The notes below the pieces were generated by a model that worked only from the letters and a program-made list of their open reading frames with translations, did no database searches and was not told the origin of the DNA. From a virus, in IMG/VR virus record IMGVR_UViG_3300032284_000716, positions 1 to 28,808 of that record: 28,808 bases of DNA; one strand, 5' to 3'. The first letter of the stretch is position 1; each line of letters starts with the position of its first letter. The position numbers and the translations under genes are program-made. Of this stretch, positions 3,001-28,808 are shown one piece after another.

Positions 3001-6000
3001 GCAGGGGTACAGAGAGACGCCTATGCAAGCGTCTCCCGCAACTCAGCGGGAAATGTTTGGTAATCATCAGCGAATTAATTTAAGCCGACTCAAAGCCGAC
3101 ACTCTAGGTCACAAGACTCCAGAGCAACAGATTAAATTTTTTGAGAACGCTAAAGCCGAACTGGATGCCGAGCTTGCCAAAGGCGATGCTGGTAGGTTCA
3201 ACGCTAACTGGGCAAAAAACATCGGTAGTGGCAATATGCCCAAAGGCCAAGCTATTGCGCAAAGGGCTCAGCTTGCAGCTAAGCACGTAGAGGCTTTAAA
3301 AGAACATTACGATGATGTAATTAATGAAATTAACCGCACAAGAGAAAAAACGCCTATTGTTTCCGAAAGAACGGCGTTTTTACCGGGGGCTAAAGGGGAA
3401 CCTCCACTTGCATCTGCTGGGTTAAGACAAATTACTGAGAATGATGATCTATATGATGAAATCGGCCCAGCTACAATGATAACTGGGTTTGATACGCACG
3501 GTAATAGAGGCACCGGACTAGGTACTAAACTACTTAAAAGTATTACGGATTGGGCTGATAAAAACAACAAGACTCTAGCGCTTATCCCCTCAGCGCAGCT
3601 TGATGCTGAATTGGGTGGTTTAAACCAAGAGCAATTAAAAAGTTGGTATGAACGAAATGGCTTTGTAGATAAAGCTGACTATATGGTTAGGCAGCCAAAA
3701 GCAATAAAAGCACCTAGCCCTTCAGCTAAACGTAGCGAAGCAGTAACCGAAGCTAAGAAAATCCAAGCGGTTACAACCGAAGGACTTAAAGCAGTTCAAA
3801 CTAGCCGTGAGGGTAATGAGTTAGGTAAAGCCGTTTCTGTTCTACAACAAGTTCGCCACCCCAATAATCTTTGGGGCGAGATAAATTTAATCCTTAGCAG
3901 CGGTAACGAGAAGCTCAATGACTTTTTGTCTTCTTTCTATGACGCCGACGGCTTAGCTAGAAGCGGCCCCAATCTGCAAATCAGTGCGTTGCAAGATGTT
4001 TACAAGAACATGCAGTTGATGAACGGCACTACGCAAAGGATGTTGAGTAATGCAGCAAATGAGATTGATGCATTGCAGACGTTCTACAGAGAAAACCCAA
4101 GCCTCAAGAAACCATTTGAAGACTTTGTTAACGCAACGACGTTTGACAAGTACAACCCTTTGAATCCAAAAGAGAAGGGCACTCCTAAAGCTAAGGTGTA
4201 CGACGAAAAGTTTAAACAGCTCGGCCCTAATGGGCAGGCTGCGTACAAAAGGCTTTATCAGTACTACAAAGATCTGAACAACTACAAACAAGAGTTGCTG
4301 GAAAAATCTTTAAATGACCTCGACCTTGAGGGCGAAGATCGTCAAAAACTACTTAAGGGTTTTAGAGAAGCGTACGAGAGCAGCGATGTAATCGACCCAT
4401 ATTTCCCATTGATGCGTTTTGGTGACTACGTCCTTAACCTTGGCAAAGGTAAAGATAGAGTTGCTTTGCGGTTTGAAAGCAGCAAGGAACGCAAGCGTGC
4501 GCTTAATGAATACGCCAAAAAACAAAACACAACGCCAGAAGCGTTAATCAATTCTGAAAAAGTTTCACTTGTAAACGACACAGGCGGCGCAAAAATGCGG
4601 GGTACTATTGAAGGCACCAGCAAGCTGCTCAAAACTATTTACGACGGCATCAATAACTCCAAGTCAGATGAGTTGACCAAAGGTCGTTTGAAAGACATGG
4701 CTTATCAAGCCTACTTGCAGGCAATGCCCGAGCAAAGCGTTCGTAAATTATTCTTGCATCGTGAAGGCTATCCTGGATTTTCCAGCGATTTGGTTCGTAT
4801 CCTTGCATCTCACTCAGTAAAGGCATCGTCACAGTTCGCCAGGTTAGAGTATGCAAACCCTATGCGCAGAGAGCTGGAAAGAGCTTACAGACAACTCAAA
4901 GGGAACGAACAGTACACGCCGTTCGTAGACCGCATGGCTGAGTTTGTTAGTGAGATGGTTGCTCCTGTGCCAGCAGATCGACTACAAAAAGCTGGTGAAT
5001 GGTTTGTTAACAACTTGGTTGTTCGTCCTTCGTTCCTGCACTCTCTTACTAGCTGGTCGTCGGCAATTATTCAACCTGCTGATATATTCTTAAAGGGTAT
5101 ACCCATACTTGCGGGTAACCACAGTACTGCGGCTGCTACTGCTGAAGTATCTAAAATGTTAAAAGTGTGGAACCAATTGGGGGTTATAGAAACTCTACCC
5201 GATGGAACCAAGCGTTATCGCGCGCCAAGTATTGCGTTTGCTGAAGGGTTGACTGCTGACGAAAGAGAAGCAGTTAGAGCTATGGAAGATGCGGGTGTAA
5301 CTAGAGATACTGTTGCTAACTCCGTATACAACTTCAGTAATAAAGGTAACGTAAACGTGGATTCTAAAGGTTGGCAGACTGCAAAGACTGTCGGTAAGAA
5401 TGTATTGTTTGGTGGAATGATGCACCACACAGAACGTTTGTCACGCGAAGTTATATTTATGGCTGCGTACAGACTTAGCATGAAAGACTTGGCGACCACC
5501 AAAATGCCATTTAAAGAACGCCAGCAAGCGGCTATCAATCAAGCTATCTCAGAAACATTTGAGACCTTTGGTAATTACTCAACATATAGCCGCCCCATGA
5601 TTTTTCGTGGGCCTGTGGGTAAATTTACTTTGCTCTACAAGTTTTTCCCCTACGTCACCACTAAGATCCTTTTAGGTAACGGCCTCAAGATGTTGTCGTT
5701 GACAAACTCAAGGGTTGAAAAACAAGCGGCTGCTAAAAAGTTTTTTGGTACGTTGCTTACACATTTAATGGTAGGTGGTTACGCGGCGCTACCGGCATTC
5801 AGTTTAGTTGTGGCTGCTGTCAGTGCAGCAATGAGGGGCTTTGCCGATAGGGACCCAGATGCACCAGAAGATATGCGGGATAAAGACCCAGTGCTTTGGT
5901 TCCGCACAGTATATATGCCTGAGCTTCTTGGTGATACAGGTTTGGCTAAACTTGTAGAACGTGGTCCAGTTAACTATTTGACTGGCTCGGATTTTTCTAG

Positions 6001-8644
6001 CCGTATATCACTCAATGATATGTGGTACAAAGAACCTGCACCTGCGAACACTGAGAACGAAACGTTGTGGAATTTGGCATTGACTCTTGGCGGTGCTGGA
6101 CCTAATGCAGCATTAGGCTATTATCGTGGGTTCAAGTCGTTCCTTGATGGCGATTATCAAAAGGCTGTAGAGCAATTGGCTCCCGGTTCTTTGGCTGGAC
6201 TTGTGGCTGCTGAAAGAATTCACGAGCGTGGATTAACTACTAGCCAAGGCGACCAGATTGAGAACTACGAAAAAGGTAACGTACCCGCAAGTGTGATGGC
6301 GGGCCAAGCAGTTGGGTTTAGACCTGATGTAGTTACCAACCAACAAAACAAAGCGTTTGCTGCAAATGCAATAGAAAAACGAATTGGTATTGAACGATCT
6401 GCGCTTAGTTCTCAGCTTAAGAATGCTTTCTTGAAAGCTAACGATTACAAACTTAGCGAAGCTGAACAACAACGTTGGGACAATAAGTTTAACGATACTC
6501 TTGAACAGGTAGAACTGTGGAGTGCAAAGAACCCAACTCATGCGTATAGCGCAGATGAAATTCGCAGCTTGTTAAAGAGCTCAGCTAAATTGCAGGAAAA
6601 CAGGACTGAAAACGCTGGGGTTATTGTTAATAGGAAAACTGCTGAAGTGATTAGCCCAGTAGCCGAACAACTTCAAGCCGAAAGAGAAGTTAAAAAAGCT
6701 GGCGGCGGTTCAGTACAGAGTTTTGCTGGAGGCGGTTTGGTTAGGCGTTTTGACGAAGGTGGGTCAACCAACAAATATCCAACAGCGCATGAGATTCTTC
6801 AGCAAAAAATTAATGAGCTTAAAGAACAAAGCAAACAACCTTGGCACCCGGTACAGGAGTGGAACCAAAATGTTCAAGGCGCAATTAAAAGTACAGCAGA
6901 TACTGTTAAAGGTTGGGGACAACTTGTAACCGACCCACGTGCGTATTGGGAAACTTTAAAAGAAAACGTTAGCAAAACAACACCCGAACAAGTTGCAGCG
7001 GCGTTTAACCCTAGTCATATTGGTTTTGCTGGTGCAATCAGACCAAATGTTTCTAACTTTGTACAACCAAAGCCTGTACCTGCTTTCATGCCAGGTATTA
7101 ATCAACCCGTTGGAACAATTGAAAAAGCTCTTGAAAACCATTTGCCACCTTATAGTAAAGAAGATTTACCCATGTTAGAAAGGGGAAAAGATAATGCTAA
7201 ACAACAACTACAAGAACAATGGAATAGCGCTGAAATAGACCCTGAAAGAGAACAAGAACTGATGCACCATATAAGGGATATGGAAGGACACATAAACAAT
7301 ATCCCCAAATATGAAGCACTTTCAAATTGGGTGAAAAAAAATTTATATAACTATGTTAAAAACGAAATGGGTACACCAGATGATCCCGTTCGTAAATTAG
7401 CGGATCAAGGCGTATTGCACACTGATGCGGCTTTTGGGTTAACCCACCCAATGTCATATATGACACAAGCGAGAAGAAAAATAAGCGGGCTGCCAAAAGA
7501 AGGTTACGCTACTACTGCTTTAGGTAAACGTTGGGAAAATATAACCGACGATATGCTTATACCGGTGACTAAAAAAGAATTAGAAGATGCTGACGCAGTA
7601 GCTAACTCCAACCCAAATGCACCCATGATAAGGGGGGATCGGCAAAGGGCTTATACATACCAAGATAATCCTTGGATGAAAGATAGACCAGACGACAGTC
7701 GGTTTTTTATGCTGAACACAAATTTATTCAACAGGCTTGATTTTGACCATGTGGTTGATACACTTCGAGAACAGTTGCATAACGGAACAGTTGCACCTGA
7801 AAATTTAAAAAATATTTCAGTACCACAAGCGGTGCGTAAAACTTTCGAAGCGCAAGAAAGAGCTCGTAAACTAGAAGAACAACAAAAGCAGGACGCATTA
7901 AAACAAGTTTTAGATGCTTCGCCCGTAAAAAAATACGATAACGGGCATAAATGGATTGCTTTGCCTGACCCAAATGAATCTGATACAAATATGAAATTTT
8001 GCCAAAATATTGGCGTGAGCGGTGGATGGTGTACACAGCAAGAAGCTAATGCTAAGCATTACGGTGATTCTACTCAAGGACGCCAGCTTTATGCATTGGT
8101 TGACCCAAAAGGTAAAGCCCATTTACAAATTCAAACAACAGCATACCCTTGGGAGCATGATGATTTACTTGACCGTTTGGGGGAACCAAACGCTGATGCA
8201 ATATTAAACAAAGTAGATGACGGTAGTATTTCCGATTCTCAACAACTTAATGAAGAAATGAACAAAGCATTTGGGCCAAGACCTCCAACTGTTACTGAAA
8301 TAAAACCACCAAGCAACAGTTGGGAAGGTTCTATATCTTATGGCAGAATTGAAAAAGATCCCGACTATGTACAAAAATATAAACCGTACATTAAAGACTT
8401 TTTAAACTCGGGTGACTGGGGTAGAGTAAACAGAGCTGATTTACTTGAGCACGCAGATACGCGCGATTTAAATAATTATGGCGAACTTGTGACACACGGT
8501 GCTCGTTTGGGTTTAAATTTACCTAGGTTTATTGACAACCCAACATTTCAATCTTTAAGCGATTCATGGGTAATGGGGGATGAAGCAGCATCACAACCCA
8601 TGCCTGATCCACTAAGGCAATATCAAACGCCACCGACGCAATAG
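2..8644 (+). CDS. Giant multidomain polyvalent/virion-type protein, 5'-partial
   Basis: The frame is open from base 2, so the protein starts outside the window; 2880 residues are visible. Counting from the ATG at 260: alanine/glycine-rich segments at about 75-180; an Ala/Glu/Lys-rich probable coiled coil at about 435-560; a zincin-like HELIH at 767-771, preceded by a hydrophobic strand; a GNAT-like acetyltransferase segment at about 1050-1150, with RGTGLGTKLL (motif A) and later WYERNGFV; a region around 1780-1810 (GPVGKFTLLYKFF) like those of phage large polyvalent proteins; a hydrophobic stretch at about 1830-1860; glycine-rich repeats near 2145-2175; and a C-terminal part with FCQNIG, GWCT and YALVDPKGKAHLQIQ that recalls PcfJ-type CVG/YC modules. 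Known of such proteins: many are packaged and injected with phage DNA to protect it or modify the host. That role is inferred here. It is the only plus-strand gene and converges on the replication operon. Confidence 0.85.
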   Translation, partial: TEEQKAHRQLVAERTLKAIPEIPGLKPLADISHKAQTSILNSISPSAKKALQDSQITGNIFKGEIDFGKNPSLEGYALQAVNIFGSMAPVVVGTMVTKNPETGALIGGGMAADEAIGNAVEAINKLDDKQLAQQSPFFAQMMKGGATAKEARDLTLRKASETGAALQGVVGMFGDDVLGRFVSGAFDKALTKFAGKSILAHTAVGTGLAAAEQGLSETAEGLASDVANKSVLPNTELGQGSAANFIGGMLGGLPAGAGRGFVTGLNAKLQPEPNAPAGTPKIISPIDFGAVEAPATVTDREAAVKQETQRLMSQRGFSEEVSRGMAEKSIPLAAFAEETNEPEEEENVAGPNAEPAGTSVPVPTGTDTTATTGGAGEPERNGVVSNQQNVAAPTAGERVEQPAINPLPREEFEEKYRDLTERINAYNKIDPEDRTPRQNANLEEAQGLLQNLVDAQGYFTPPPQAASVVPTVNANEPIQTPEGPVEHANLYAANEFSNEVTPEHHAGVTQAAAIVDNPQAAYDQAVKDAAAAKENFNRLDQLFKFPDITAEEQVTQEQRDEAKQQLDDALLKADQAQAALEESQAAAKEAARQRAPGAGRKPAELTPEQQAAKAKIAADEQAAKAEVEKARRGVKKAEAFLSEGLAPLTEEQMKDPKGQAFHENDKTAMIDEATRMLADIVDNRSLKNRPIGKKARELLQTNNITAEDIKRARAKKAASEKAIEDLYRQKRDLLGSSSYDQVFGPSSMSASNVGQSVPAFSGNKTAAQAINTIMKFGDEVQRYFANHLRGFVKDVKFVVLEVGDELPPQLKKYQSWWDLSRGLYIPENGNKTIYVRGESFGPHRGNDITTVLHELIHASSDERIYVGQNSPNNTELSRAVSSIDEMRERAARVFEAGKRNRLLPQDLINLVEDVPDIFTNTYEFVAYGLSQPEMQKFLMSMPSDPKHFTESMFSRFTRGLMNILGLNSSSKERLNAFTDLAMVTDKMLNAKYTSAERAIAQGYRETPMQASPATQREMFGNHQRINLSRLKADTLGHKTPEQQIKFFENAKAELDAELAKGDAGRFNANWAKNIGSGNMPKGQAIAQRAQLAAKHVEALKEHYDDVINEINRTREKTPIVSERTAFLPGAKGEPPLASAGLRQITENDDLYDEIGPATMITGFDTHGNRGTGLGTKLLKSITDWADKNNKTLALIPSAQLDAELGGLNQEQLKSWYERNGFVDKADYMVRQPKAIKAPSPSAKRSEAVTEAKKIQAVTTEGLKAVQTSREGNELGKAVSVLQQVRHPNNLWGEINLILSSGNEKLNDFLSSFYDADGLARSGPNLQISALQDVYKNMQLMNGTTQRMLSNAANEIDALQTFYRENPSLKKPFEDFVNATTFDKYNPLNPKEKGTPKAKVYDEKFKQLGPNGQAAYKRLYQYYKDLNNYKQELLEKSLNDLDLEGEDRQKLLKGFREAYESSDVIDPYFPLMRFGDYVLNLGKGKDRVALRFESSKERKRALNEYAKKQNTTPEALINSEKVSLVNDTGGAKMRGTIEGTSKLLKTIYDGINNSKSDELTKGRLKDMAYQAYLQAMPEQSVRKLFLHREGYPGFSSDLVRILASHSVKASSQFARLEYANPMRRELERAYRQLKGNEQYTPFVDRMAEFVSEMVAPVPADRLQKAGEWFVNNLVVRPSFLHSLTSWSSAIIQPADIFLKGIPILAGNHSTAAATAEVSKMLKVWNQLGVIETLPDGTKRYRAPSIAFAEGLTADEREAVRAMEDAGVTRDTVANSVYNFSNKGNVNVDSKGWQTAKTVGKNVLFGGMMHHTERLSREVIFMAAYRLSMKDLATTKMPFKERQQAAINQAISETFETFGNYSTYSRPMIFRGPVGKFTLLYKFFPYVTTKILLGNGLKMLSLTNSRVEKQAAAKKFFGTLLTHLMVGGYAALPAFSLVVAAVSAAMRGFADRDPDAPEDMRDKDPVLWFRTVYMPELLGDTGLAKLVERGPVNYLTGSDFSSRISLNDMWYKEPAPANTENETLWNLALTLGGAGPNAALGYYRGFKSFLDGDYQKAVEQLAPGSLAGLVAAERIHERGLTTSQGDQIENYEKGNVPASVMAGQAVGFRPDVVTNQQNKAFAANAIEKRIGIERSALSSQLKNAFLKANDYKLSEAEQQRWDNKFNDTLEQVELWSAKNPTHAYSADEIRSLLKSSAKLQENRTENAGVIVNRKTAEVISPVAEQLQAEREVKKAGGGSVQSFAGGGLVRRFDEGGSTNKYPTAHEILQQKINELKEQSKQPWHPVQEWNQNVQGAIKSTADTVKGWGQLVTDPRAYWETLKENVSKTTPEQVAAAFNPSHIGFAGAIRPNVSNFVQPKPVPAFMPGINQPVGTIEKALENHLPPYSKEDLPMLERGKDNAKQQLQEQWNSAEIDPEREQELMHHIRDMEGHINNIPKYEALSNWVKKNLYNYVKNEMGTPDDPVRKLADQGVLHTDAAFGLTHPMSYMTQARRKISGLPKEGYATTALGKRWENITDDMLIPVTKKELEDADAVANSNPNAPMIRGDRQRAYTYQDNPWMKDRPDDSRFFMLNTNLFNRLDFDHVVDTLREQLHNGTVAPENLKNISVPQAVRKTFEAQERARKLEEQQKQDALKQVLDASPVKKYDNGHKWIALPDPNESDTNMKFCQNIGVSGGWCTQQEANAKHYGDSTQGRQLYALVDPKGKAHLQIQTTAYPWEHDDLLDRLGEPNADAILNKVDDGSISDSQQLNEEMNKAFGPRPPTVTEIKPPSNSWEGSISYGRIEKDPDYVQKYKPYIKDFLNSGDWGRVNRADLLEHADTRDLNNYGELVTHGARLGLNLPRFIDNPTFQSLSDSWVMGDEAASQPMPDPLRQYQTPPTQ

Positions 8645-8919: not shown

Positions 8920-11701
8920 TGTTAACGATCACATCCAAGTTAATCAAATCAGACTTATTTAAATTGAACTTTAAAGCACGGATTGGGGGCGACACAACTG
9001 CCATGCCTTTGGACATGCGCTTATTAATACCCTCTACAAACACCTCGGCATCGGTCATTTCTTTCAGGATATTCTTGTAGTTGTATTGGTTTTTGACGCA
9101 GAAGTCTTTGAATGGTTTTGCAGCAATATACAATTCTTTAGTATCTGGCTCGTAGCGTACGAGCAATTCACCCCTTGGTTCCCTGAGCGGCAAAGAATTT
9201 AAACCACTTCGTGCGTCAACTACGCCATTTACTACGAGCATGTTGTTAGCAACGTGGGCGTTAATAAACTCACCCAGTGGGGCTGTGGGTAAATCCTGTG
9301 GGGGCTTTACATCTTCCTTAATACTCTTAAGGGTTTTTACGCACCACTTGTAAATGGCTGCCATATCAAAGTCGCATAGCCCTAGATGCTTGGCAATTAA
9401 CCCTGCGGAAATAATACATGCACACTGCGCAGACCAAAACCTCTCGGCTGAGGTGAACTGTACATCTTTGTCTAACCTAGCTTGAGTTTTTCTGAGTAAA
9501 TCATCCTTGATGTACTCAAGATTGTTAACGCAGTATTGTATAAAAATCTCGCCAGCGTGTCCGTAATTTTCAAATAACTGGTGGTCAAACATTTGCTTGC
9601 CTTCGGAAACGCTGATAGCATCGCTTGGCTGGATTTCATACTCAAGCAACCGCAACTGTTCGGCGTTCGCTGCGCTTTTGAATGAACTCATTTTCTCGTA
9701 GAAGCTAGAGTTGGCTGAGCATAAAGTCATGCAGGCCCAAGTTACGTCGTTAGGTCTAAGTGTATTTGTATGCGCTGAGGCTCTGTCTTTATCTTTGCCG
9801 CCTGACGTACTGTACGCATAGTTAGAAAAAGTGTCGGCGGTCATGTTTGTGATCTCGTCAACTAGATTAGGCATATGACACAGAATGCCCAACTTAATCA
9901 TCTTAGCATTGATCGTGTCTTTAGGCGTAGATACCAAACTTCGGGGGTTGCCCCATATGCTAGCCGCCATGTTAAGAGTAGTTGTTTTACCAGAACCACC
10001 GTGCTTGTAGATTACGTTTACTATTGCACCGTTCAAACCTGTGAACTTGAATATGGGGGAAGCAAAACCCACCAATGCGGCAAACGCATTTGCCTCAAGC
10101 CCCGGTCTGGCGTACATGTTAAACACTTCTTTCCATTTCTCAAGCGTACCTTTGGGGTGTATATGGGGGACCATTGCCTTGGTTGCAGAAGATGGCGGGC
10201 TGTAAAACACACCATCCTTTGTTATCTCTTTATCACCCATAATGAATCGACTGTTATTGTCGCACCAACCAAATTGATTTCTCATGATCTCGGCCTTTCT
10301 TTGAAACTGCATATTCTTAATAACCGTTACAACATAACGAGCGAGTAGCTCGTATTCTTTAGCATGCGTAACAATCCCTTGTTGAGCTAACTGTTTGCGT
10401 AGCTCATCCTTCGACGATATAACACTCGTTGGTATCGTGAATTCTCGAACGCCATCATGCGGCAGGTGTAGACGAAACAACGCAATCTCACCTAACGCAG
10501 TATCGCTCATTCGTTTGACCACATAAAAATCGTGCTCATAAACTAAATCTGGATCCTCTTCTTCATTCTTCTTATAGATGCCGCCGTTCTTGCCCCTGAA
10601 GTACGGGAACGGATACTCTGGTATCTTGATGACTTTGTTTTCGACGACAACTTCGTTGTCCTCTTCGGTTGCTTCGGCTATCTCAATACCCAAAACAATC
10701 GGTGATTTGATTTTCCCTTTGTGCACACACTCATCGCATCCAGTCGGATTAAGTTTCTCGAACTGTGCACATGAGTGGGGGCCACCTGTTTTGACGATGT
10801 AGTCAACTTTTTTATCCACTTCGGCTGGGTCATAGCCTTCGTGCTTGTTGGACATCTTATGAGATGCCCAATCTTTATCTACACAAAACGCTGTGATAGA
10901 TAAGGCTGAACGCCACAATGGTTCCTCAATGCTATTTTGATTTTCATAGCAATGTATAAGCTGATTGCACTCAGCTTTAATCATGATGGTCTTAAACCGT
11001 TTAAGTTTATTACCAATCATAGCCTCCATCATGGGGCTCATCTTACGAGCAAACTCAGGTACTTCATCCTCGGGATCAGGAGCACCGAGAATTTCTTTGA
11101 CCTGCTCATAAGTCATCCGCTTTGACTTCTCATTTATAACCGTAACCTCAAGAGGCTCGGCTTTAAAATTGAACGTACCCGGAATTCGTAACACGCGAGA
11201 TGCTTCGAACACTGACGCATCAACGATGAGTCCATGCTCTTGGCTTAGATCACGCAGTCGGTGTGACAATGGTTGCCAATCCCTGCGTTCTATAGTTTTA
11301 TCAAGCAACCAATAGGCATGAATGCCGTTGCCTGAATTGATGAGTACCGGCTTTGGTAAGCCGACCGTCATGCAGAACTTTTGAAGTTCAACCAACCCAA
11401 TCTCTTGGGTCAGATAACCCTTGACTATGCCGTCTTCGTCGGGTATCCCCTTCTTTGGGCCACAATCAATATCCACCCATAAAGCCCTAAAGTAAACAGC
11501 ATTCTCATGCGTGCGGTTGTTGGCTGGTCCAAACTTAGCGCATCCATAATATGCATCGACTTTGTTCTCTACAAATTGTTTCGTTATCTCTTCGACTTCT
11601 TCTCTAGTATCTACAAATCTTTGGTCAGGAAATTTACCACCAAGCCCAAGTACACAATACCTACCCTCAGTGGGTAGAACGGTGTCTAATAGGTCGAACA
11701 T
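8888..11701 (-). CDS. Primase-polymerase fused to a DUF927-like helicase
   Basis: This 937-residue protein looks like a fused replication primase and helicase. The N-terminal part resembles archaeo-eukaryotic primase/PrimPol domains: WVDID (D77, D79) would bind metal, INSGNGIHAYW (about 121-131) matches the nucleotide-binding histidine motif, and SRVLRIPGTFNFK (168-180) is the typical third motif. A cysteine knuckle (SCAQF, then CDEC, near 310-325) follows. The C-terminal half has a Walker A, GGSGKTTT (near 565), and a Walker B, LVDEI, in a context like DUF927/D5-type superfamily 3 or AAA+ helicases. It probably synthesises primers and unwinds DNA for the polymerase encoded upstream. The start ATG follows AGGA by 13 bases and overlaps the HTH gene by 35 bases. 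Family assignment is by motif recognition only; the exact helicase family is less certain than the primase call. Confidence 0.85.
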   Translation of the reverse strand: MFDLLDTVLPTEGRYCVLGLGGKFPDQRFVDTREEVEEITKQFVENKVDAYYGCAKFGPANNRTHENAVYFRALWVDIDCGPKKGIPDEDGIVKGYLTQEIGLVELQKFCMTVGLPKPVLINSGNGIHAYWLLDKTIERRDWQPLSHRLRDLSQEHGLIVDASVFEASRVLRIPGTFNFKAEPLEVTVINEKSKRMTYEQVKEILGAPDPEDEVPEFARKMSPMMEAMIGNKLKRFKTIMIKAECNQLIHCYENQNSIEEPLWRSALSITAFCVDKDWASHKMSNKHEGYDPAEVDKKVDYIVKTGGPHSCAQFEKLNPTGCDECVHKGKIKSPIVLGIEIAEATEEDNEVVVENKVIKIPEYPFPYFRGKNGGIYKKNEEEDPDLVYEHDFYVVKRMSDTALGEIALFRLHLPHDGVREFTIPTSVISSKDELRKQLAQQGIVTHAKEYELLARYVVTVIKNMQFQRKAEIMRNQFGWCDNNSRFIMGDKEITKDGVFYSPPSSATKAMVPHIHPKGTLEKWKEVFNMYARPGLEANAFAALVGFASPIFKFTGLNGAIVNVIYKHGGSGKTTTLNMAASIWGNPRSLVSTPKDTINAKMIKLGILCHMPNLVDEITNMTADTFSNYAYSTSGGKDKDRASAHTNTLRPNDVTWACMTLCSANSSFYEKMSSFKSAANAEQLRLLEYEIQPSDAISVSEGKQMFDHQLFENYGHAGEIFIQYCVNNLEYIKDDLLRKTQARLDKDVQFTSAERFWSAQCACIISAGLIAKHLGLCDFDMAAIYKWCVKTLKSIKEDVKPPQDLPTAPLGEFINAHVANNMLVVNGVVDARSGLNSLPLREPRGELLVRYEPDTKELYIAAKPFKDFCVKNQYNYKNILKEMTDAEVFVEGINKRMSKGMAVVSPPIRALKFNLNKSDLINLDVIVNNEDRVGELQH

Positions 11702-11951
11702 TTTGTTTGCGTTTCCTCAAGAATTCAATGTAATCTTTGATGCGTAGATGCTGATATTGGTAAGGCTGCGATGTGCCTTTAAACCAATTGTAGATAGTAG
11801 CCCTGCTCACGTTGAGCTCTAGGGCTACCTCCGAAACTGGAACACCTGCCTCAATACAATGTTTTCCCAAGGATACGCCAAGTTGCAACTTACGAAGGCT
11901 GGACGCCTTCTTGTTTGCTTTTACTAATTCTTGGCTGTATCCGTGACTCAT
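11667..11951 (-). CDS. Helix-turn-helix DNA-binding protein, 94 aa
   Basis: Residues 38-58 (PVSEVALELNVSRATIYNWFK) form a clear helix-turn-helix of the resolvase/Fis/XRE type, followed by a very basic tail (FLRKRKQ, then RPIRHR). The ATG has the ribosome binding site GAGGAT five bases upstream and starts just after the stop of the ssDNA-binding protein gene; the 3' end overlaps the primase gene by 35 bases. Its place directly before the primase suggests a role in replication initiation, for example origin recognition or loading, or in autoregulation of the operon. This is inference. It is one of three small HTH or RHH proteins in the window that could bind the repeated DNA sites described elsewhere. 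Confidence 0.75.
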   Translation of the reverse strand: MSHGYSQELVKANKKASSLRKLQLGVSLGKHCIEAGVPVSEVALELNVSRATIYNWFKGTSQPYQYQHLRIKDYIEFLRKRKQNVRPIRHRSTH

Positions 11952-19761: not shown

Positions 19762-19789
19762 AATATAGCACTACTTTTGACTTTGTCAA
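19762..19789 (-). promoter_or_regulatory. Sigma-70-like promoter P3 of the replication operon
   Basis: On the minus strand, TTGACA (19784-19789), a 16-base spacer and TATATT (19762-19767). The expected start of transcription falls at or within one base of the VRR-NUC ATG (19756). It is placed between the terminator of the early operon and the first replication gene. Unlike P1 and P2 it has no palindrome or 5' hairpin downstream. Confidence 0.7.
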
Positions 19790-19833: not shown

Positions 19834-19847
19834 CTGACATTTGTCAG
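19834..19847 (-). repeat. Palindrome copy 1 (3' end of early operon)
   Basis: CTGACAAATGTCAG on the minus strand. It lies 5 bases after the stop of the DUF3310 gene and 9 bases before the terminator stem. The same order, stop then palindrome then terminator, is seen at copy 9. Confidence 0.85.
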
Positions 19848-19852: not shown

Positions 19853-20377
19853 TTATGTTGATGCTATTGCACGATCAATATACCATTTAGCTTTCTTCAA
19901 GTCTTCTACTCGGTTGCCCTTGTGGTCTGCACGGCTTATGTATTTCACCGCATTGCCAAGGTTGTAGTCCAGCTTCTTCGCTTCGATAAAGTCAATCGTT
20001 TCAATACCGCCAATTTTATAGTGCGATGGGTGATTAACCATATCTTTTGGCTCATGAACCACAGGCACAGTTTGAGGTACACCCTTCACGCCCTCACTTG
20101 TTTCTACAAGCACACCCACAGGTGGTTGCCATTCTTTAGCGATCTCTGTCGGTACAATAGAATGTGTATGAGTGATGAGCTTGTTCAACTCAGCAAAAGA
20201 CTTTACTGACTTGGGTGTTTCGACTGGCTTAAACAGCTTCTTTGCTTTGTACATAACTTGATATACAAACTCAGAGCTTTCGCCCAACTCTTTAGCCACT
20301 TCGCTTAACTTCATAGTGGGGTGACCCGCTACAAATTTACGCACGATACCTGATCTAGAATTAGCTTGTAATCCCAT
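19853..20377 (-). CDS. DUF3310 protein with N-terminal HTH-like region, 174 aa
   Basis: The start is the ATG at 20377, seven bases after AAGGAGAG. Residues 20-50 (TMKLSEVAKELGESSEFVYQ, then VMYKAKK) look like a helix-turn-helix. Residues about 112-172 are a clear DUF3310 domain: DMVNHPSHYKIGGIETIDFI, then NAVKYISRADHKG and DLKKAKWYIDRAI. DUF3310 occurs in T7 gp1.7, a nucleotide kinase, and in many phage proteins, but the T7 activity cannot be assumed here, and the HTH fusion suggests DNA binding instead or in addition. It is the last gene of the early operon. The overlap of 17 bases with the RHH gene suggests the two are co-expressed. Confidence 0.85.
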   Translation of the reverse strand: MGLQANSRSGIVRKFVAGHPTMKLSEVAKELGESSEFVYQVMYKAKKLFKPVETPKSVKSFAELNKLITHTHSIVPTEIAKEWQPPVGVLVETSEGVKGVPQTVPVVHEPKDMVNHPSHYKIGGIETIDFIEAKKLDYNLGNAVKYISRADHKGNRVEDLKKAKWYIDRAIAST

Positions 20378-20558
20378 TTTCTCTCTCCTTTTGGTTGTTA
20401 ACATACTCAGTAAGAATTTCTCTCATTTTGGCTTGCTTGGTAAACGGGTGATGCTCAGAAAAATAATCCATTATCTCTTTGCTCAACCGAATACTCGTAC
20501 AAGTGAGAGCGGGCTTCTTACCTACGCCCCTACCTCTACGTCTTGTTCCTTCCGACAT
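20361..20558 (-). CDS. Ribbon-helix-helix-like small protein, 65 aa
   Basis: A basic N-terminus (MSEGTRRRGRGVGKKPALT) is followed by TSIRLSKEIMDYFSEHHPFT, then QAKMREILTEYV, the strand-helix-helix pattern of Arc/MetJ or antitoxin-type RHH proteins. These bind palindromic operators as dimers of dimers. The start is the ATG at 20558 (TGATG junction with the previous gene; GGAGC upstream); a TTG one codon earlier is unlikely. It is a good candidate for binding the CTGACA-NN-TGTCAG palindromes, but this is only proposed because of its type and position. No toxin partner is recognisable beside it. Confidence 0.7.
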   Translation of the reverse strand: MSEGTRRRGRGVGKKPALTCTSIRLSKEIMDYFSEHHPFTKQAKMREILTEYVNNQKERENGITS

Positions 20559-22301: not shown

Positions 22302-22315
22302 CTGACATTTGTCAG
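22302..22315 (-). repeat. Palindrome copy 2 (gene junction, overlaps stop codon)
   Basis: CTGACAAATGTCAG on the minus strand. Its TGA is the stop codon of the DUF3150-like gene. It is followed by GAAAGGGACAAC and the ATG of the 286-residue gene, identical to copy 7. Confidence 0.88.
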
Positions 22316-23374: not shown

Positions 23375-23388
23375 CTGACATTTGTCAG
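23375..23388 (-). repeat. Palindrome copy 3 (upstream of leader frame)
   Basis: CTGACAAATGTCAG on the minus strand, one base after the stop of the VWA gene, followed by GAAAGGAAACAAC and an ATG. Confidence 0.88.
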
Positions 23389-24589: not shown

Positions 24590-24824
24590 AATTTCCTCCA
24601 TACCAACTAATTTCTTCAGTTACTTCTTGTTTTGTGCGACCGTTTATCAGTAAGCACATATTGAGGGCTTCTTCTTTCGTATCGTGAATTGATACTAATT
24701 TGCTTACTTGCCCCCAATCAGATTCGGTAAGTACCACTTCGTACTTACCTGTAAAATACAAACCGTTCGATGTTTCATCAATGCCAGTCTGTCGTCTAAC
24801 CCATGCGAATGTTGTTTCTGACAT
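24573..24824 (-). CDS. Small phage protein between MoxR and VWA genes, 83 aa
   Basis: The only in-frame ATG lies inside palindrome copy 4 (CTGACAA-ATG-TCAG), without a ribosome binding site, 12 bases after the stop of the MoxR gene; translation is probably coupled. The protein (MSETTFAWVRRQTGIDETSN, then GLYFTGKYEVVLTESDWGQV, then EEALNMCLLINGRTKQEV) is strand-rich with a helical end and no recognised domain. The 3' end overlaps the VWA gene by 17 bases. It may bridge the two proteins it lies between. Confidence 0.65.
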   Translation of the reverse strand: MSETTFAWVRRQTGIDETSNGLYFTGKYEVVLTESDWGQVSKLVSIHDTKEEALNMCLLINGRTKQEVTEEISWYGGNYERRT

Positions 24825-24831
24825 TTGTCAG
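24818..24831 (-). repeat. Palindrome copy 4 (contains a start codon)
   Basis: CTGACAAATGTCAG on the minus strand; the internal ATG (24822-24824) is the start of the 83-residue gene. The following bases (AAACAACATT) look like copy 3 with its GAAAGG ribosome binding site deleted and its ATG changed to ATT. Confidence 0.85.
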
Positions 24832-24836: not shown

Positions 24837-25901
24837 TCACAGTAGGTCTTGATTCTTAGCAACCCAGTCAGCGAATGCTTTGCATGAGAACGCAATGCTC
24901 TGCTTAACTGGAGTCTTCGCAATATTGATAGCGAACACGGCTTGCCACTCGGCATCGAACCGCTCTAAGTAGTCCATGAATGGAGTAATAGTATTCTTGT
25001 CAACTCTACTGATAGCAGAGAACACAGTAATAGCACAGGCCCCAGGTGATGTGGGAACCTTTGTGACTGTTGGCGCAGATATAACTTGCTCCCATGTCGG
25101 CAGTTGATCTGCAAACTCGATGTACGCTTGCATATCACGAGCACCAGCTTCACCGATTGCGCCTGACAATGCAGATATAACCGAGTCGGTATCATTCTCT
25201 CTGCGAGACTTCACGATGTTCGATGCAGTCTCAAGTGAACGTGGCGAAACGAATGCCCCAGTTGTTTTCTTGGGGTTATAGATGTAGGGGTTATCATTTT
25301 GTCCACCATCGGTATACGATGCTAGAACCTGTGGGAACCTAGACACCCATGCACACACCTCGGGCTCGATGCCCTTGTTGATAGCCCATGATAACCACTC
25401 GTCAGCAGTTGGTTTGGATATTTGAATAGGCACAAGACGGTTTCTGCTGTGCGCTTTCATCGTATCACCTACTCCGTCAGAGCTAAGATTACCAGTCAAA
25501 AACACAATGCAATCTTTGTGCAATGACACATCACCGCATCGTGGGTTAGCCTTCTCAAGCATTGGGTGTAGCATATTCTTTACTGGGTCAGCGCCTTTGG
25601 TAAACTCGTCGAGCATAATTACCAATGGCTTTTTCTCATGCAACTTGAACCTAGCATTAGGATAGTACCTAGTAGTCTTGGTATCGTGGTCAATGACTGG
25701 CATCGCAATGTCGCCTAAGTCCATGTTGGGTACGTCAATGTATGCGTACTCATATCCAAGTCCCTCGGCAACGTCTTTGAGTAATGAACTCTTACCGATT
25801 CCGGGCTCACCCAATAAGCAGAACCTAGTCTCAGGGTTGGTGCGAATCAATGTGGCTGCTTGCTTAAGGGTAACTGTTTTACCGAATCTAACTTCTGACA
25901 T
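24837..25901 (-). CDS. MoxR-type AAA+ ATPase, 354 aa
   Basis: The start is the ATG at 25901 after AGAGGAG; an upstream frame runs through the promoter leader and is rejected. Walker A GEPGIGKS (31-38), Walker B VIMLDEF (D98, E99), sensor 1 in FLTGNLSSDG (N138) and arginine residues in SRNR (R153, R155) define a MoxR/RavA-like AAA+ ATPase. These proteins use ATP to remodel or mature targets, usually with a VWA partner, here encoded two genes downstream. The C-terminal part (about 230-354) is helical and carries no extra enzyme motif. It has its own promoter P2, a leader hairpin and palindrome copy 5, and its start codon region (AAATGTCAGA) repeats the right half of the palindrome. Confidence 0.9.
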   Translation of the reverse strand: MSEVRFGKTVTLKQAATLIRTNPETRFCLLGEPGIGKSSLLKDVAEGLGYEYAYIDVPNMDLGDIAMPVIDHDTKTTRYYPNARFKLHEKKPLVIMLDEFTKGADPVKNMLHPMLEKANPRCGDVSLHKDCIVFLTGNLSSDGVGDTMKAHSRNRLVPIQISKPTADEWLSWAINKGIEPEVCAWVSRFPQVLASYTDGGQNDNPYIYNPKKTTGAFVSPRSLETASNIVKSRRENDTDSVISALSGAIGEAGARDMQAYIEFADQLPTWEQVISAPTVTKVPTSPGACAITVFSAISRVDKNTITPFMDYLERFDAEWQAVFAINIAKTPVKQSIAFSCKAFADWVAKNQDLL

Positions 25902-25922
25902 TTCTAACTCCTCTAATAAAAT

Positions 25923-25936
25923 CTGACATTTGTCAG
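25923..25936 (-). repeat. Palindrome copy 5 (leader of MoxR gene)
   Basis: CTGACAAATGTCAG on the minus strand, in the 5' leader about 32-45 bases after the predicted start of transcription from P2. With the next 19 bases it is identical over 33 bases to copy 8 and its downstream flank. Confidence 0.9.
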
Positions 25937-25941
25937 GAAAA

Positions 25942-25971
25942 ATATATAGCAGACGAATTTCTACTATATAT
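25942..25971 (-). promoter_or_regulatory. Predicted 5'-terminal RNA hairpin of the P2 transcript
   Basis: An 11-bp stem, ATATATAGTAG (25961-25971) with CTGCTATATAT (25942-25952), has one G-U pair and an 8-base loop AAATTCGT. It starts at the predicted 5' end of the message. The P1 transcript has a hairpin in the same place with a similar AAATCG loop. Confidence 0.65.
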
Positions 25972-25974
25972 AAC

Positions 25975-26003
25975 ATTGTAACACAGTATAATAACTATGT
26001 CAA
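25975..26003 (-). promoter_or_regulatory. Sigma-70-like promoter P2 (MoxR/VWA module)
   Basis: Minus strand: TTGACA (25998-26003), 17-base spacer, TACAAT (25975-25980). Near consensus. It shares the 16-base block at 25996-26011 with P1, and a GTTACAATG site overlaps its -10. It lies in the gap after the 319-residue gene. Confidence 0.85.
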
Positions 26004-26013
26004 GTATTTTGGC

Positions 26014-26973
26014 TCATTCTTGGGGCAACCAACCGTCGTACCTGTTCTGTGGAATTTTCCCAGTTGGCAACTCAACCCATTCGAGGCATTCTTTACGATA
26101 GTGGTAGTAAATAGGCTCAGTCACTATGGATTTGAGTCTAGACACAGTCACGTTAAACGATACCAATTCTCTGCGTATCACATGATTGAGTGAAGTAACG
26201 GCTAACTGCAACATGGCCTCGTGATACTTAGAAGTGTCACCGCTCTCCAATAACTCCATGAATCTGAACGTATGTAGTTCTCGATTCGAACCGAGCAATA
26301 GATCTTTGCAATGGCTACGATCTAAGTAAAAAAGTGGGTTACCTGTTGATGGTGATGAGTCAAAGTAATCTTTTAGTTCATCAAAGTAAAATGTAACAAC
26401 CTCTTGGTTTACTTGCCCTACATAGTAATGCTGGCCTGAATGTGTAAGCATGTGCTTGCGCAACTTAATCATATTTCTGACATATGTCAGAAACGGAGCA
26501 TAACGCTTACGCAGATCACGAGCTACGTCCTTCTTCAGTACCAAGTCAATCGTGGCCTCTGGGTCAATCACGCTCAGCCGATCTTTGCTCAACACGTTCT
26601 CCTCAACCTTCAGGTTGATCTCGTGCTTGTAAATGTACTTATTGCCGTTGTTTAGCGTAATGACGTTGTTGAAGTTTTCCTGATACGCACGCACAGCCAA
26701 GACCTGTTCAAAAAGCTGATTACAGTTCGCAGTATCGTAGAACATACTGAGCTTGATGGTGTTATCGGGTCTAAACGTAATGACTGGGCGACGATAGTGC
26801 ACTATCTGTACGTCTTCGCCTTTCATGCGAATGTTGTATGCGTCGGCATCTCTGCGGTTACCGAGTGGCTTCATGTCAGGTCTACCTCGTAAGGGCTTGA
26901 TAGTACTGTGGAAATACAATGCTTCCGAATAGTTCCGTATGAACGGACACGCTTGTACTGTTCTATATCCCAT
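26014..26973 (-). CDS. Conserved phage protein of unknown function, 319 aa
   Basis: The N-terminal third has a block (STIKPLRGRPDMKPLGNRRD then ADAYNIRMKGEDVQIVHY) that I recognise as a conserved hypothetical protein of many tailed phages, with R-x-x-P-L-G-x-R-R highly conserved. The rest is mixed alpha/beta with a basic segment (VLKKDVARDLRKRYAPF). No catalytic motif is known. GGAGG precedes the ATG, and the gene is intact. It contains a perfect 20-bp copy of the palindrome family in its coding sequence, and its 3' end lies against P2. It belongs to the P1 transcript. Confidence 0.75.
   Translation of the reverse strand: MGYRTVQACPFIRNYSEALYFHSTIKPLRGRPDMKPLGNRRDADAYNIRMKGEDVQIVHYRRPVITFRPDNTIKLSMFYDTANCNQLFEQVLAVRAYQENFNNVITLNNGNKYIYKHEINLKVEENVLSKDRLSVIDPEATIDLVLKKDVARDLRKRYAPFLTYVRNMIKLRKHMLTHSGQHYYVGQVNQEVVTFYFDELKDYFDSSPSTGNPLFYLDRSHCKDLLLGSNRELHTFRFMELLESGDTSKYHEAMLQLAVTSLNHVIRRELVSFNVTVSRLKSIVTEPIYYHYRKECLEWVELPTGKIPQNRYDGWLPQE
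26474..26493. repeat. Palindrome copy 6 (inside coding sequence)
   Basis: A perfect 20-bp palindrome TTTCTGACATATGTCAGAAA, inside the 319-residue gene. Arms match the family, with TA at the centre instead of AA/TT. It could be an internal regulatory site or chance conservation. Confidence 0.6.
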
Positions 26974-26974
26974 G

Positions 26975-27172
26975 TTAAATATCCTCCGTTATAGCTTGCG
27001 CTAGTCTTTGTGTTAATAAATTACGAACCCTGTCGATGGCTTCCGTCGGGTCTAAGGCATAAACGTGCATCTCACGGAAACTCGATTCAGTTTCCCATTG
27101 CACAATATGTAGAACCTCGCCCTCTTTGTCCATGTCGCTCTTGTTAGCGATGCGTGCATAAAACTGTAACAT
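26975..27172 (-). CDS. Small phage protein, 65 aa
   Basis: The start is set at the second ATG of ATGATG (27172), which is better spaced from GGAGGG and overlaps the upstream stop as TGATG; a longer TTG-initiated frame would overlap two other genes. The sequence is MLQFYARIANKSDMDKEGEV then LHIVQWETESSFREMHVYAL and a helical end. It looks like a small alpha/beta protein of unknown function. Stop and next ATG are one base apart. Confidence 0.6.
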   Translation of the reverse strand: MLQFYARIANKSDMDKEGEVLHIVQWETESSFREMHVYALDPTEAIDRVRNLLTQRLAQAITEDI

Positions 27173-27267
27173 CATGCCCTCCAAACAAATACATCTAATA
27201 GCACCACGATTAGTGCGATCAAGAAAACAATGCGCATGATGCGTTCCTCGTGCGTGAATAAACTCAT
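27172..27267 (-). CDS. Membrane microprotein, 31 aa
   Basis: Read directly: ATG at 27267 with AGGAGG eight bases upstream; stop TGA at 27172-27174. The protein, MSLFTHEERIMRIVFLIALI then VVLLDVFVWRA, has a short charged N-terminus and one hydrophobic helix long enough to span the membrane. It overlaps the previous gene as ATGA and the next as TGATG. The strong ribosome binding site and chain of overlaps support expression. Function unknown; with the 37- and 68-residue proteins it makes three membrane microproteins in the early operon. Confidence 0.65.
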   Translation of the reverse strand: MSLFTHEERIMRIVFLIALIVVLLDVFVWRA

Positions 27268-27443
27268 AACTGAACCTCCTCGTGTTTAATGACAATGTTA
27301 ACTTCCATGTTCTTGATCTTGGTCAAGTCGTCACGGGTCAACGTCTTCTGACCTAGCATGTCGGCAAACTGATGGGCTAGTTTGCACTCAGGGTAGAAAA
27401 CTGTTTTGCCGTATGTGTTTTTAACTCTTACTGTGATATCCAT
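27264..27443 (-). CDS. Small phage protein, 59 aa
   Basis: Read directly: ATG at 27443 after GGAAAGGGACAAC, the same block that begins the 286-residue gene. The protein is MDITVRVKNTYGKTVFYPEC then KLAHQFADMLGQKTLTRDDL and ends NMEVNIVIKHEEVQL. Its beta-alpha-alpha-beta-like pattern with YGKTVFYPEC is typical of short phage proteins whose role is unknown. The stop overlaps the next ATG (ATGA). Palindrome copy 7 lies immediately upstream. Confidence 0.7.
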   Translation of the reverse strand: MDITVRVKNTYGKTVFYPECKLAHQFADMLGQKTLTRDDLTKIKNMEVNIVIKHEEVQL

Positions 27444-27455
27444 GTTGTCCCTTTC

Positions 27456-27469
27456 CTGACATTTGTCAG
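27456..27469 (-). repeat. Palindrome copy 7 (gene junction)
   Basis: CTGACAAATGTCAG on the minus strand, seven bases after the stop of the 82-residue gene, followed by GAAAGGGACAAC and the ATG of the 59-residue gene. Identical over 29 bases to copy 2. Confidence 0.88.
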
Positions 27470-27476
27470 ATTTTTG

Positions 27477-27725
27477 TTAATCATTCTCTGCACCGATATA
27501 GCACCCTGCAAAGTAGTGCGTATGTCCGAACGCTCGTATAAAACCCACTGGTATTCTTCTGTTTCTTCTAGATAAACGCTCAAGCTCAAGCTCATACTTG
27601 TACGCATACACAGAGGATCGTTTCAGATCTCGCTTGTAGGGTTTTAATGCTTTGACCATGTATGTTTGTGCCGACTGCATACTGTTTAGTAGTGGTCGTG
27701 TTGAGGTAAATTTAAAATGTGCCAT
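27477..27725 (-). CDS. Basic hypothetical phage protein, 82 aa
   Basis: A basic protein (KALKPYKRDLKRSSVYAYKY, then ELERLSRRNRRIPVGFIRAF) ending GHTHYFAGCYIGAEND. The charge suggests nucleic acid binding, but there is no fold motif. It starts 4 bases after the stop of the zinc-ribbon gene with only a weak ribosome binding site, so it is likely coupled. Its stop precedes palindrome copy 7. Confidence 0.6.
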   Translation of the reverse strand: MAHFKFTSTRPLLNSMQSAQTYMVKALKPYKRDLKRSSVYAYKYELELERLSRRNRRIPVGFIRAFGHTHYFAGCYIGAEND

Positions 27726-27729
27726 GATG

Positions 27730-27948
27730 TTAAATCTTTTTAGGATTAATCTGCTTCACGGTTGTGGGTGCTTGTGTAGATGTAACAAACATGTAGCCAC
27801 CTTTGTTGTACTCTTGGACTATGGTCCATGATTCACGTTCGGCACGAGCGTGATCTTCACCGCAAAATAAGCAATGACGATAACCTAATGACCATCGTTC
27901 TATGTGTATGTCGTCACCGCAAGTGTGACATTCTTTCCAGTTGTCCAT
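27730..27948 (-). CDS. Zinc-ribbon protein, first gene of the early operon, 72 aa
   Basis: The start is ATG 27948, nine bases after AGAGGAG; an earlier ATG inside palindrome copy 8 lacks a ribosome binding site and is rejected. CHTC and CLFC, 16 residues apart, form a zinc ribbon (ECHTCGDDIHIERWSLGYRH then CLFCGED), followed by a helix and a strand-rich tail (WTIVQEYNKGGYMFVTSTQA). The layout is reminiscent of DksA/TraR-like or small regulatory zinc proteins, but the match is loose. As the first gene after P1 it would be among the earliest products. Confidence 0.7.
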   Translation of the reverse strand: MDNWKECHTCGDDIHIERWSLGYRHCLFCGEDHARAERESWTIVQEYNKGGYMFVTSTQAPTTVKQINPKKI

Positions 27949-27971
27949 GGTACTAACTCCTCTAATAAAAT

Positions 27972-27985
27972 CTGACATTTGTCAG
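27972..27985 (-). repeat. Palindrome copy 8 (leader of early operon)
   Basis: CTGACAAATGTCAG on the minus strand, about 42 bases into the leader of the P1 transcript, with the same 19-base downstream flank as copy 5. Confidence 0.9.
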
Positions 27986-28005
27986 AAAACTAACACATCT
28001 AATGT

Positions 28006-28027
28006 ATGGTAGGCGATTTCCCACCAT
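28006..28027 (-). promoter_or_regulatory. Predicted 5'-terminal RNA hairpin of the P1 transcript
   Basis: An 8-bp stem, ATGGTGGG (28020-28027) with CCTACCAT (28006-28013), has one G-U pair and a 6-base loop AAATCG. The predicted start of transcription is at 28027, the first base of the stem. Confidence 0.65.
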
Positions 28028-28033
28028 CTATAT

Positions 28034-28062
28034 AGTATAACACAATGTTACGGTTATGTCAA
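28034..28062 (-). promoter_or_regulatory. Sigma-70-like promoter P1 of the early operon
   Basis: Minus strand: TTGACA (28057-28062), 17-base spacer, TATACT (28034-28039). Near consensus. A GTAAC site (ACAATGTTAC on the plus strand, 28042-28051) lies inside the spacer, where a bound protein could control the promoter. Confidence 0.88.
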
Positions 28063-28592
28063 GTATTTTGAGCCGTTTTTGGCGCAACACGATGTTACGC
28101 ATATGCAATGTGAGCGTAGGGCTAAATCACGGAACTGGTTCAGGTTGTTACAAAATGAATAGGGTTGATGTGATAATGTTATGTAACATTAGGGCAAAAT
28201 GTAACGCAAAACGTAACGCCGTAAGTCCTTGATTTGTAAGGTGAAAATATGTGTTTAGGTATGTAATGTAATAAAGTTATAAAAAATAGAAAATAGAGAA
28301 TACGGCGCCAAAATTAAGTTATGTAGATTTGCTCCGCACTTGCCGAGAAGGTCAAGCGATTCCCCGCTTATTCAATCCTCAAAAAAAACGTAACATATAA
28401 CATTGCTTTAAAATCAACAACTTAGCAAAAACAAAACGTAACAAAGCACTAAAAAACGTAACAAAGCATGAGCTAAAACATAACATGCGGTAAGGCCAAG
28501 CCCGAGCGCCCGCTTGGGAACTGGTGCAACATCGTGAACCAAGTCACCATGTAAATCAATAACACAAAGAATTACAATGTTACAGAAACGAC
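28063..28592. other. Non-coding control region rich in GTAAC motifs, candidate origin
   Basis: About 530 bases without a credible gene. The core GTAAC or its complement occurs at 28094, 28147, 28183, 28201, 28213, 28390, 28438, 28458 and 28579, with further copies at 28047 (P1) and 28617. Only about one would be expected by chance in this length. There is also a 7-2-7 inverted repeat AATGTTATGTAACATT (28175-28190), an inverted repeat CCAAGC/GCTTGG (28496-28501 and 28512-28517), and an AT-rich tract near 28260-28320. This fits a replication origin with iterons or a multi-operator region. Placement beside the early promoters supports either. Confidence 0.5.
28433..28468 (+). repeat. Tandem direct repeat AAAACGTAACAAAGCA
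   Basis: Two exact 16-base copies (28433-28448 and 28453-28468) at 20-base spacing, about two helical turns, so both would face the same side of the DNA. A related AAAACGTAAC occurs at 28210-28217 and 28384-28394. Confidence 0.8.
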
Positions 28593-28613
28593 AAAAGCCC
28601 ACCGAAGTGGGCC
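28593..28613 (-). terminator. Rho-independent terminator with UUCG loop
   Basis: The stem GCCCAC (28597-28602) with GTGGGC (28607-28612) reads on the minus strand as CCCAC-TTCG-GTGGG, a very stable cUUCGg tetraloop, followed by TTTTG. It ends the gene at 28650-28808 and separates it from P1. The T run is short. Confidence 0.7.
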
Positions 28614-28649: not shown

Positions 28650-28808
28650 TTAATCCTTGTAAACTTCGGTCAGTGGTCCAAAGCATACGAACGCATTCTC
28701 TAGGGCTTCGAGAGCCTTGAGTGATTTTGGCATATACTCTTTACCCGCTTCAGCTTTCTGTATGCGGCGTAGGATAGTAGCCAACTCTTTCATGGTAACG
28801 GCGTCACA
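28650..28808 (-). CDS. Small phage protein, partial at window end
   Basis: The frame is open to the end of the window. It reads CDAVTMKELATILRRIQKAE, then AGKEYMPKSLKALEALENAF and ends FGPLTEVYKD. The ATG at 28793 has no clear ribosome binding site, so the gene probably begins outside the window. The protein looks like a helical hairpin with no known domain. It ends in the palindrome-terminator pair described above, so it belongs to another minus-strand transcript upstream of the control region. Confidence 0.6.
   Translation of the reverse strand, partial: CDAVTMKELATILRRIQKAEAGKEYMPKSLKALEALENAFVCFGPLTEVYKD

Follow-up and report, generated by a model that had tools for sequence, protein, structure and literature searches.

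Dispersed palindromes as candidate stoperator-like operators in the promoter and 5' hairpin cassettes of an uncultured phage group

Short repeated elements that may control phage genes have been described in several forms. The SPBRE element of Bacillus phage SPbeta is recognised by one phage master regulator, MrpR, which was found long after the element itself (PMC10516654). The SAS and ESAS repeats of Cluster K mycobacteriophages have no known partner protein (PMC3203893). Stoperators, known from Cluster A mycobacteriophages, are short sites present in many dispersed copies. The promoter-early-stem-loop cassettes (PeSLs) of T4-like myoviruses are characterised, in the account cited by PMC4503421, as promoter-terminator motifs through which genes are shuffled. 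In E. coli, a stem at the first bases of a transcript, as in ompA and papA, hinders RppH and RNase E and stabilises the mRNA (PMC3997798). Here we describe a 28.8-kb virus fragment from IMG/VR (IMGVR_UViG_3300032284_000716, 28,808 nucleotides; its whole length is called the window), in which early and replication genes lie on the minus strand. A palindrome, CTGACANNTGTCAG, is dispersed through this region and also belongs to two promoter cassettes, P1 and P2. Judged from the sequences compared below, the palindromes are probably operators of a stoperator-like kind that a new phage DNA-binding protein would bind, and they are set in promoter/5' hairpin cassettes; the protein would repress, and the hairpin would stabilise the mRNA.

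The two cassettes and the genes that follow them are:

28034-28062, minus strand: P1, sigma70-type promoter with extended -10, TTGACA-17-TATACT (TTGACA at 28062-28057, 17 bp, TATACT at 28039-28034); the same promoter type occurs in relatives
28006-28027, minus strand: P1 5' hairpin, 8 bp with one G-U pair, loop AAAUCG, from the predicted +1
27972-27985, minus strand: P1 leader palindrome, CTGACAAATGTCAG
27730-27948, minus strand: gene for a 72-aa DksA-like zinc-finger protein, first after P1 (weak match, phrog_54, E 0.011)
25975-26003, minus strand: P2, sigma70-type promoter with extended -10, TTGACA-17-TACAAT (TTGACA at 26003-25998, 17 bp, TACAAT at 25980-25975)
25945-25968, minus strand: P2 5' hairpin, 9-11 bp with one U-G pair, loop AAUUCG
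25923-25936, minus strand: P2 leader palindrome, CTGACAAATGTCAG
24837-25901, minus strand: gene for an N4 gp24-like MoxR-type ATPase, first after P2 (phrog_1297, E 3e-51)
27985-27953 (P1) and 25936-25904 (P2), minus strand: 33-base block CTGACAAATGTCAGATTTTATTAGAGGAGTTAG, identical in both, holding the palindrome and an AGAGGAG ribosome binding site (RBS)

TG precedes the -10 box in both promoters, which account for two of the three 11/12 matches in a promoter scan of the last 10.8 kb. They have 16 bases in common, CAAAATACTTGACATA, and their homology spans 51 nt at 75%. The initial annotation had proposed a repeated cassette with a shared 16-base -35 block, a 17-bp spacer and an identical 33-base palindrome/RBS block, and each of these parts was found in its place on the minus strand.

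Relatives were retrieved with the ATPase as query. This gave 80 viral contigs; in the ATPase, 3 of these are near-identical to the window and the others 77-82% identical. The order promoter, 5' hairpin, palindrome, RBS recurs in about 75 relatives. In 77 loci, with 54 different leaders between them, the ATPase is preceded by a strong extended -10 promoter, and most of these have a hairpin from the predicted first bases. Other early promoters of the relatives share the promoter and 5' hairpin design, with several promoters per genome, and sister contig L003 carries a third cassette upstream of its first early gene. The cassette is a repeated unit whose design is found in dozens of relatives. 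When the early promoters with TGn before the -10 were pooled from all loci (124 non-redundant), a palindrome was found downstream of the -10 in 103, at a median distance of 51 nt (interquartile range 46-55).

The promoter spacers (TAACATTGTG) were also considered as operator copies. They were dropped, since the spacer of the window clade retains TAACA while its operator reads CTGACA. A second palindrome, TTGACWnnGTCAA-like, overlaps the -35 box at 19762-19789 on the minus strand of the window (TTGACAAAGTCAA) and in relatives L018, L022, L024, L025 and L087 (TTGACATTGTCAA). It is possibly a second operator type.

The leaders of P1 and P2 fold as a 5' hairpin followed by the palindrome stem, better than nearly all shuffled sequences (z -2.7 and -2.8). 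A helix of at least 6 bp beginning at +1 to +3 of the predicted start is present in 78 of the 124 promoters, compared to 32.4 after shuffling and 36 and 20 in downstream windows. One group of six hairpins can be aligned. Over its 12 pairs, 97% of cells are paired, against 29-51% for slid partners; two pairs have changed on both sides, and one pair shows CG, AU, GC and GU. Because this group is small, the main support comes from a helix recurring at the same place with unrelated sequences. An Rfam search gave no match. On the evidence of its paired double changes, the 5' hairpin is a conserved RNA element. Two statements of the initial annotation are borne out by this: that the hairpins at the two predicted 5' ends differ in sequence yet keep their pairing and have similar loops, and that their stems should covary in relatives.

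A hairpin in this position need not be a stabiliser. It might cause attenuation or pausing, assist promoter clearance, or belong to a mobile promoter-stem-loop unit like the PeSLs of T4. It does stand immediately after the promoter and recurs with several promoters per genome. The 5' hairpins have no U-tract, however, and are absent from the list of a terminator scan, and stems known to stabilise mRNA begin, like these, at the 5' end (PMC3997798). These other roles are therefore considered unlikely, if still worth keeping in mind. The parallel with PeSLs that had been drawn for this locus survives in outline, as a repeated promoter followed by a stem-loop. Its terminator part, as PeSLs are characterised in the account cited above, does not carry over, since the U-tract is missing.

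The palindrome had been read as a further component of the cassette, which the evidence does not support. There are 9 exact copies of CTGACANNTGTCAG, all within the last 9 kb of the window; when 2 mismatches are allowed, 10 are found where 1.4 are expected. Seven of the 9 lie outside P1 and P2:

28626-28639, minus strand: CTGACAATTGTCAG, between the end of the candidate regulator gene and its terminator
27456-27469, minus strand: intercistronic, directly before an RBS, without promoter
26477-26490, minus strand: CTGACATATGTCAG, inside a 319-aa gene, codons L-T-Y-V-R
24818-24831, minus strand: 3' of the ATPase gene
23375-23388, minus strand: intercistronic, before an RBS
22302-22315, minus strand: at a two-gene junction, before an RBS
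19834-19847, minus strand: 3' of a helix-turn-helix (HTH)-DUF3310 gene

Several of these copies directly precede an RBS without a promoter, and one is intragenic. Most relatives have 7-15 sites per 13 kb, between and within genes. In near-complete genomes of 62-66 kb most of the sites fall within a single stretch of about 8-20 kb that surrounds the ATPase. For instance, a 62,271-base contig has 16 copies from 28,082 to 40,698.

Nearly all relatives that hold more than a few sites have one arm sequence that far outnumbers every other palindrome. The arms are CTAACA/TGTTAG in most relatives, CTGACA in the window clade, GTAACA in L022, and ATAACA or CTAACA in L055; in L014 and L024 the palindrome is absent or almost absent. 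One, two or three bases stand between the arms, and their number is nearly always fixed per genome. The resulting sites are perfect palindromes of 13-15 bp, spelled CTAACAATGTTAG (13-type), CTAACAAATGTTAG (14-type) or CTGACAAATGTCAG (window type). A median of 100% of a genome's sites are alike in spacing or spelling, and at least 80% are alike in 151 of 155 loci. An orientation bias, mostly towards one direction, is seen only for 14-type sites with centre AA. Some palindromes were scored as weak terminators, but the T-run is not conserved in relatives.

In the ATPase leaders of L029, L050 and L061, a GC hairpin, GGGCGATTTTGCCC, takes the place of the palindrome before the RBS. The intergenic stretch 28380-28600 of the window holds repeated AAAACGTAACAAAGCA-like units, and GTAACA-rich stretches of a similar kind are present in relatives. 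Synechococcus phage MinM2 (L250/L253, OQ594354), which has the same MoxR/DUF3150/VWA module, carries a dispersed 15-bp palindrome of its own, GGTTCAGnCTGAACC, in about 27 places, late region included, often before start codons.

A palindrome in a leader can act as DNA or as RNA. As an RNA hairpin before the RBS, it would control translation or RNA processing. It is followed directly by the RBS in both leaders and also stands in front of several promoterless genes, it can fold into a stem of 5-6 bp, and where leaders L029, L050 and L061 have lost it they retain another hairpin. The leader copies, and only these, show a slight excess of pairing outside the arms, but this ends after 1-2 bases. 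Within a genome the arms show no compensatory drift. Among 263 one-mismatch sites, 10 mismatches are G-U, 25 are A-C and 228 are other, mostly transversions; some copies were scored against each of two reference spellings, so the total is inflated while the G-U share is unaffected. As mismatches are so seldom G-U, the arms are not RNA-wobble-like. The spacing is moreover uniform throughout a genome and linked to protein class, as shown below.

Further evidence comes from sites within codons. The ATPase peptide SNIV(R/K) is coded TCT AAC ATT GTT AGG/AGA, which is the 13-bp site, in 40 of 43 13-type loci and in 6 of 31 other typed loci, the remainder of which choose different codons. In 9 of those 31 the last residue is K, so that a perfect 13-bp site is impossible there. 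That synonymous codons preserve the site within translated sequence is more in keeping with a DNA site than with an RNA hairpin. The palindrome is apparently a dispersed, DNA-level element under selection within codons, and an RNA role for it seems quite unlikely.

A candidate for the protein that reads these sites is encoded by the first early gene:

28650-28808, minus strand: candidate operator-binding protein gene, 3' end only, the rest beyond the window (intact in L003:2362-2922)
28596-28613, minus strand: intrinsic terminator 3' of this gene

The product is an orphan protein of 157-186 aa. In trees of the first set of loci, its gene needs 2 changes of site type, the minimum for three types, whereas the likewise widely shared ATPase, VWA, 283-aa, 294-aa, 353-aa, zinc-finger and small HTH genes need 4-7. 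The set was enlarged by fetching contigs with profiles of both regulator classes. In the enlarged set (n=155), A4-class proteins occur with 13-type sites in 99 loci and A3-class proteins with 14-type or CTGACA sites in 51, while 5 are discordant. On a common set of loci, 4 type changes are needed for the regulator, against 9 for the ATPase, 10 for VWA and 7 for the 283-aa gene. The two regulator classes are homologous (HHalign 97.6%, E 3e-12).

Two discordant contigs have 13-class proteins with 14-type sites. In both of these proteins four residues are inserted immediately ahead of the conserved NPS..W helix, an insertion seen in 0 of 56 other distinct 13-class proteins. The insertion coincides with a 1-bp change in arm spacing. 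L129 has CTGACA sites on either side of a window-like regulator gene and mostly 13-type sites elsewhere, and L155 is similar; by their sequences, both look like recombinants in transition, with an apparent regulator swap under way. Site spelling and spacing switch together with the regulator gene, which makes its product the likely binding partner.

Two other proteins were tried as partners. The small universal HTH protein (HTH_23/HTH_3-like; 11667-11951, minus strand, just upstream of the primase-like gene) was rejected because near-identical proteins occur with differing site types. Of 35 relatives searched, 27 have it, and those without it are mostly short contigs; it is probably a second regulator. 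The zinc-finger gene after P1, with a homologue in 67 loci, does not track site type either.

The sites could also be read by a host regulator, in which case the co-switching protein would only mark phage lineage or host range. Such a reading draws on the lack of a recognised DNA-binding domain in the phage protein. It would leave aside the match between the four-residue insertion and the spacing, and also the fact that the ATPase, VWA and other early genes of the same region follow site type less well than the first gene, and that a second universal phage protein, the HTH protein, does not follow it. A host regulator seems very unlikely.

Another possibility is that the sites are parS-like or architectural, serving partition, DNA compaction or the organisation of the replication region by a ParB/KorB-type protein. 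Palindromes of 13-15 bp every 0.5-1 kb or so, many of them promoter-independent and in the early/replication region, would suit such a role. Sites of the KorB system of RK2 are arranged in a comparable way. Against it, ParA was found in 0 of 18 near-complete genomes, the regulator has neither a ParB-like family match nor a clear fold match (models of moderate quality), and the sites are strongly positioned in leaders about 50 nt past the -10. We therefore regard a partition or architectural role as quite improbable.

Several points weigh against the overall reading of operators with a repressor and stabilising hairpins. The loci are all metagenomic and mutually related, so that counts are not independent, and gene and transcript starts are predicted. 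Five contigs are discordant; for example, L135 has a 14-class protein with 13-type sites. Three small, patchy gene families with fewer members likewise need few type changes (1-3) in smaller sets, so linkage alone yields some congruence. It also accounts for part of that of the regulator, whose gene is located where the site-rich region ends. The AlphaFold models of the protein (pLDDT about 78, pTM 0.47-0.62) are all-helical with no recognised DNA-binding domain. Two of these moderate-confidence models gave only weak generic helical matches and no clear fold with Foldseek and VIA-align. The protein sequence had no meaningful match in PHROGs, Pfam, PDB sequences or isolated phages. About a third of the promoters lack a clear 5' hairpin. 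Finally, a classical role in immunity is doubtful, because integrase, resolvase and ParA (PF00589, PF00239, PF13614) were found in 0 of the 18 near-complete genomes.

The repressor model can be pictured as follows. P1 and P2 would be early promoters for host RNA polymerase. The stem-loop at the transcript start would, most likely and by analogy with ompA and papA, shield the 5' end from RppH and RNase E and so prolong the life of early mRNA. About 45 bases past the predicted start, a DNA operator would follow. It would be among about 9-20 sites of the same type that are distributed across the 10-20 kb early region, in leaders, between genes and within genes. The putative binding protein, the 157-186-aa first-gene product, would occupy all of these. 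On leader sites and sites along the path of elongation, it would most likely lower early transcription by blocking initiation or elongation. As the leader sites lie beyond the initiating polymerase, a roadblock is likelier than promoter occlusion. The site at the regulator's own gene would provide autoregulation. In phages showing no integrase, early genes would in this way be shut off with a delay, and shut-off during lytic growth is as likely as immunity.

A bolder version of this model is offered tentatively, at slightly less than even chances. It holds that a new all-helical family of DNA-binding proteins silences the whole early region from palindromic stoperators, some of them in codons, and that specificity has switched several times together with all sites, once by a four-residue insertion matching a 1-bp change in half-site spacing.

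If true, a regulator and its regulon would have been identified purely by the co-evolution of protein and sites, in phages without a cultured close relative, and a new family of DNA-binding proteins would be added. The relatives would form a natural series of specificity and spacing switches, useful for learning how a regulator and more than 10 sites change together. Stoperator-like control would extend beyond the known integrating temperate phages. The unit of promoter, 5' hairpin, operator and RBS would also be a compact natural expression cassette.

The phages themselves appear to form a widespread, uncultured, aquatic and apparently non-integrating group. The MoxR-type ATPase, 354 aa in the window, has 298 relatives in viral contigs, while a search with it against GTDB genome contigs gave no relative and no prophage match. 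Megablast of the window against isolated phages found no match; by terminase, the nearest isolates are DSL-LC04, HTVC027P, HTVC023P and MinM2. The first early gene of MinM2, MM2_92 (187 aa), is not detectably homologous to the candidate regulator.

Besides the ATPase, the early and replication genes of the window encode a DUF2201/VWA protein, a family A DNA polymerase, an SNF2 helicase, a PD-(D/E)XK nuclease and a primase-like protein. At 19853-20404 on the minus strand, a DUF3310 domain is fused to an N-terminal HTH-like segment, with homologues in 29 loci. A 2794-aa open reading frame (260-8644, plus strand), convergent with the early genes, has partial-length similarity to giant DarB-like antirestriction proteins.

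Compared with known systems, the sites described here are laid out like the stoperators of Cluster A mycobacteriophages such as L5, Bxb1 and Trixie (PMC6550527). Both have many copies of a short site, most of them off promoters, with a lineage-specific consensus matched to the phage's own regulator (here a candidate regulator) and a site beside the regulator gene. Cluster A sites are oriented with transcription, whereas here only 14-type sites with centre AA mostly point one way. The L5 sites are asymmetric and 13 bp long, while those here are palindromes, confined to the early region and partly in codons. The L5 repressor belongs to temperate phages with integrase or parABS; here neither integrase nor ParA was found, and the candidate regulator falls into no family described so far.

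SPBRE and MrpR (PMC10516654) are likewise a repeated element, of 15 bp, with many sites. Unlike the sites of the present phages, SPBREs lie in prophage promoter regions, and MrpR has a tyrosine-recombinase fold. The SAS and ESAS of Cluster K mycobacteriophages (PMC3203893) resemble the palindromes in being repeats or inverted repeats just before many start codons with a subcluster-specific consensus. The SAS 13-mer, GGGATAGGAGCCC, is asymmetric and linked to start codons, and ESAS are imperfect 17-bp repeats, whereas CTGACANNTGTCAG is also intragenic.

The cassettes have two parallels of their own. Like the PeSLs of T4-like phages, they consist of a repeated early promoter and then a stem-loop; unlike PeSLs as far as the account cited above describes them, their hairpins begin at the 5' end, lack a U-tract and are accompanied by an operator and an RBS, in a phage that is not T4-like. 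Like the 5' stem-loops of the ompA and papA type (PMC3997798), these hairpins form a helix from the very 5' end, as predicted here. What differs is that several promoters of the phages described here include such a stem-loop as a regular component whose sequence varies.

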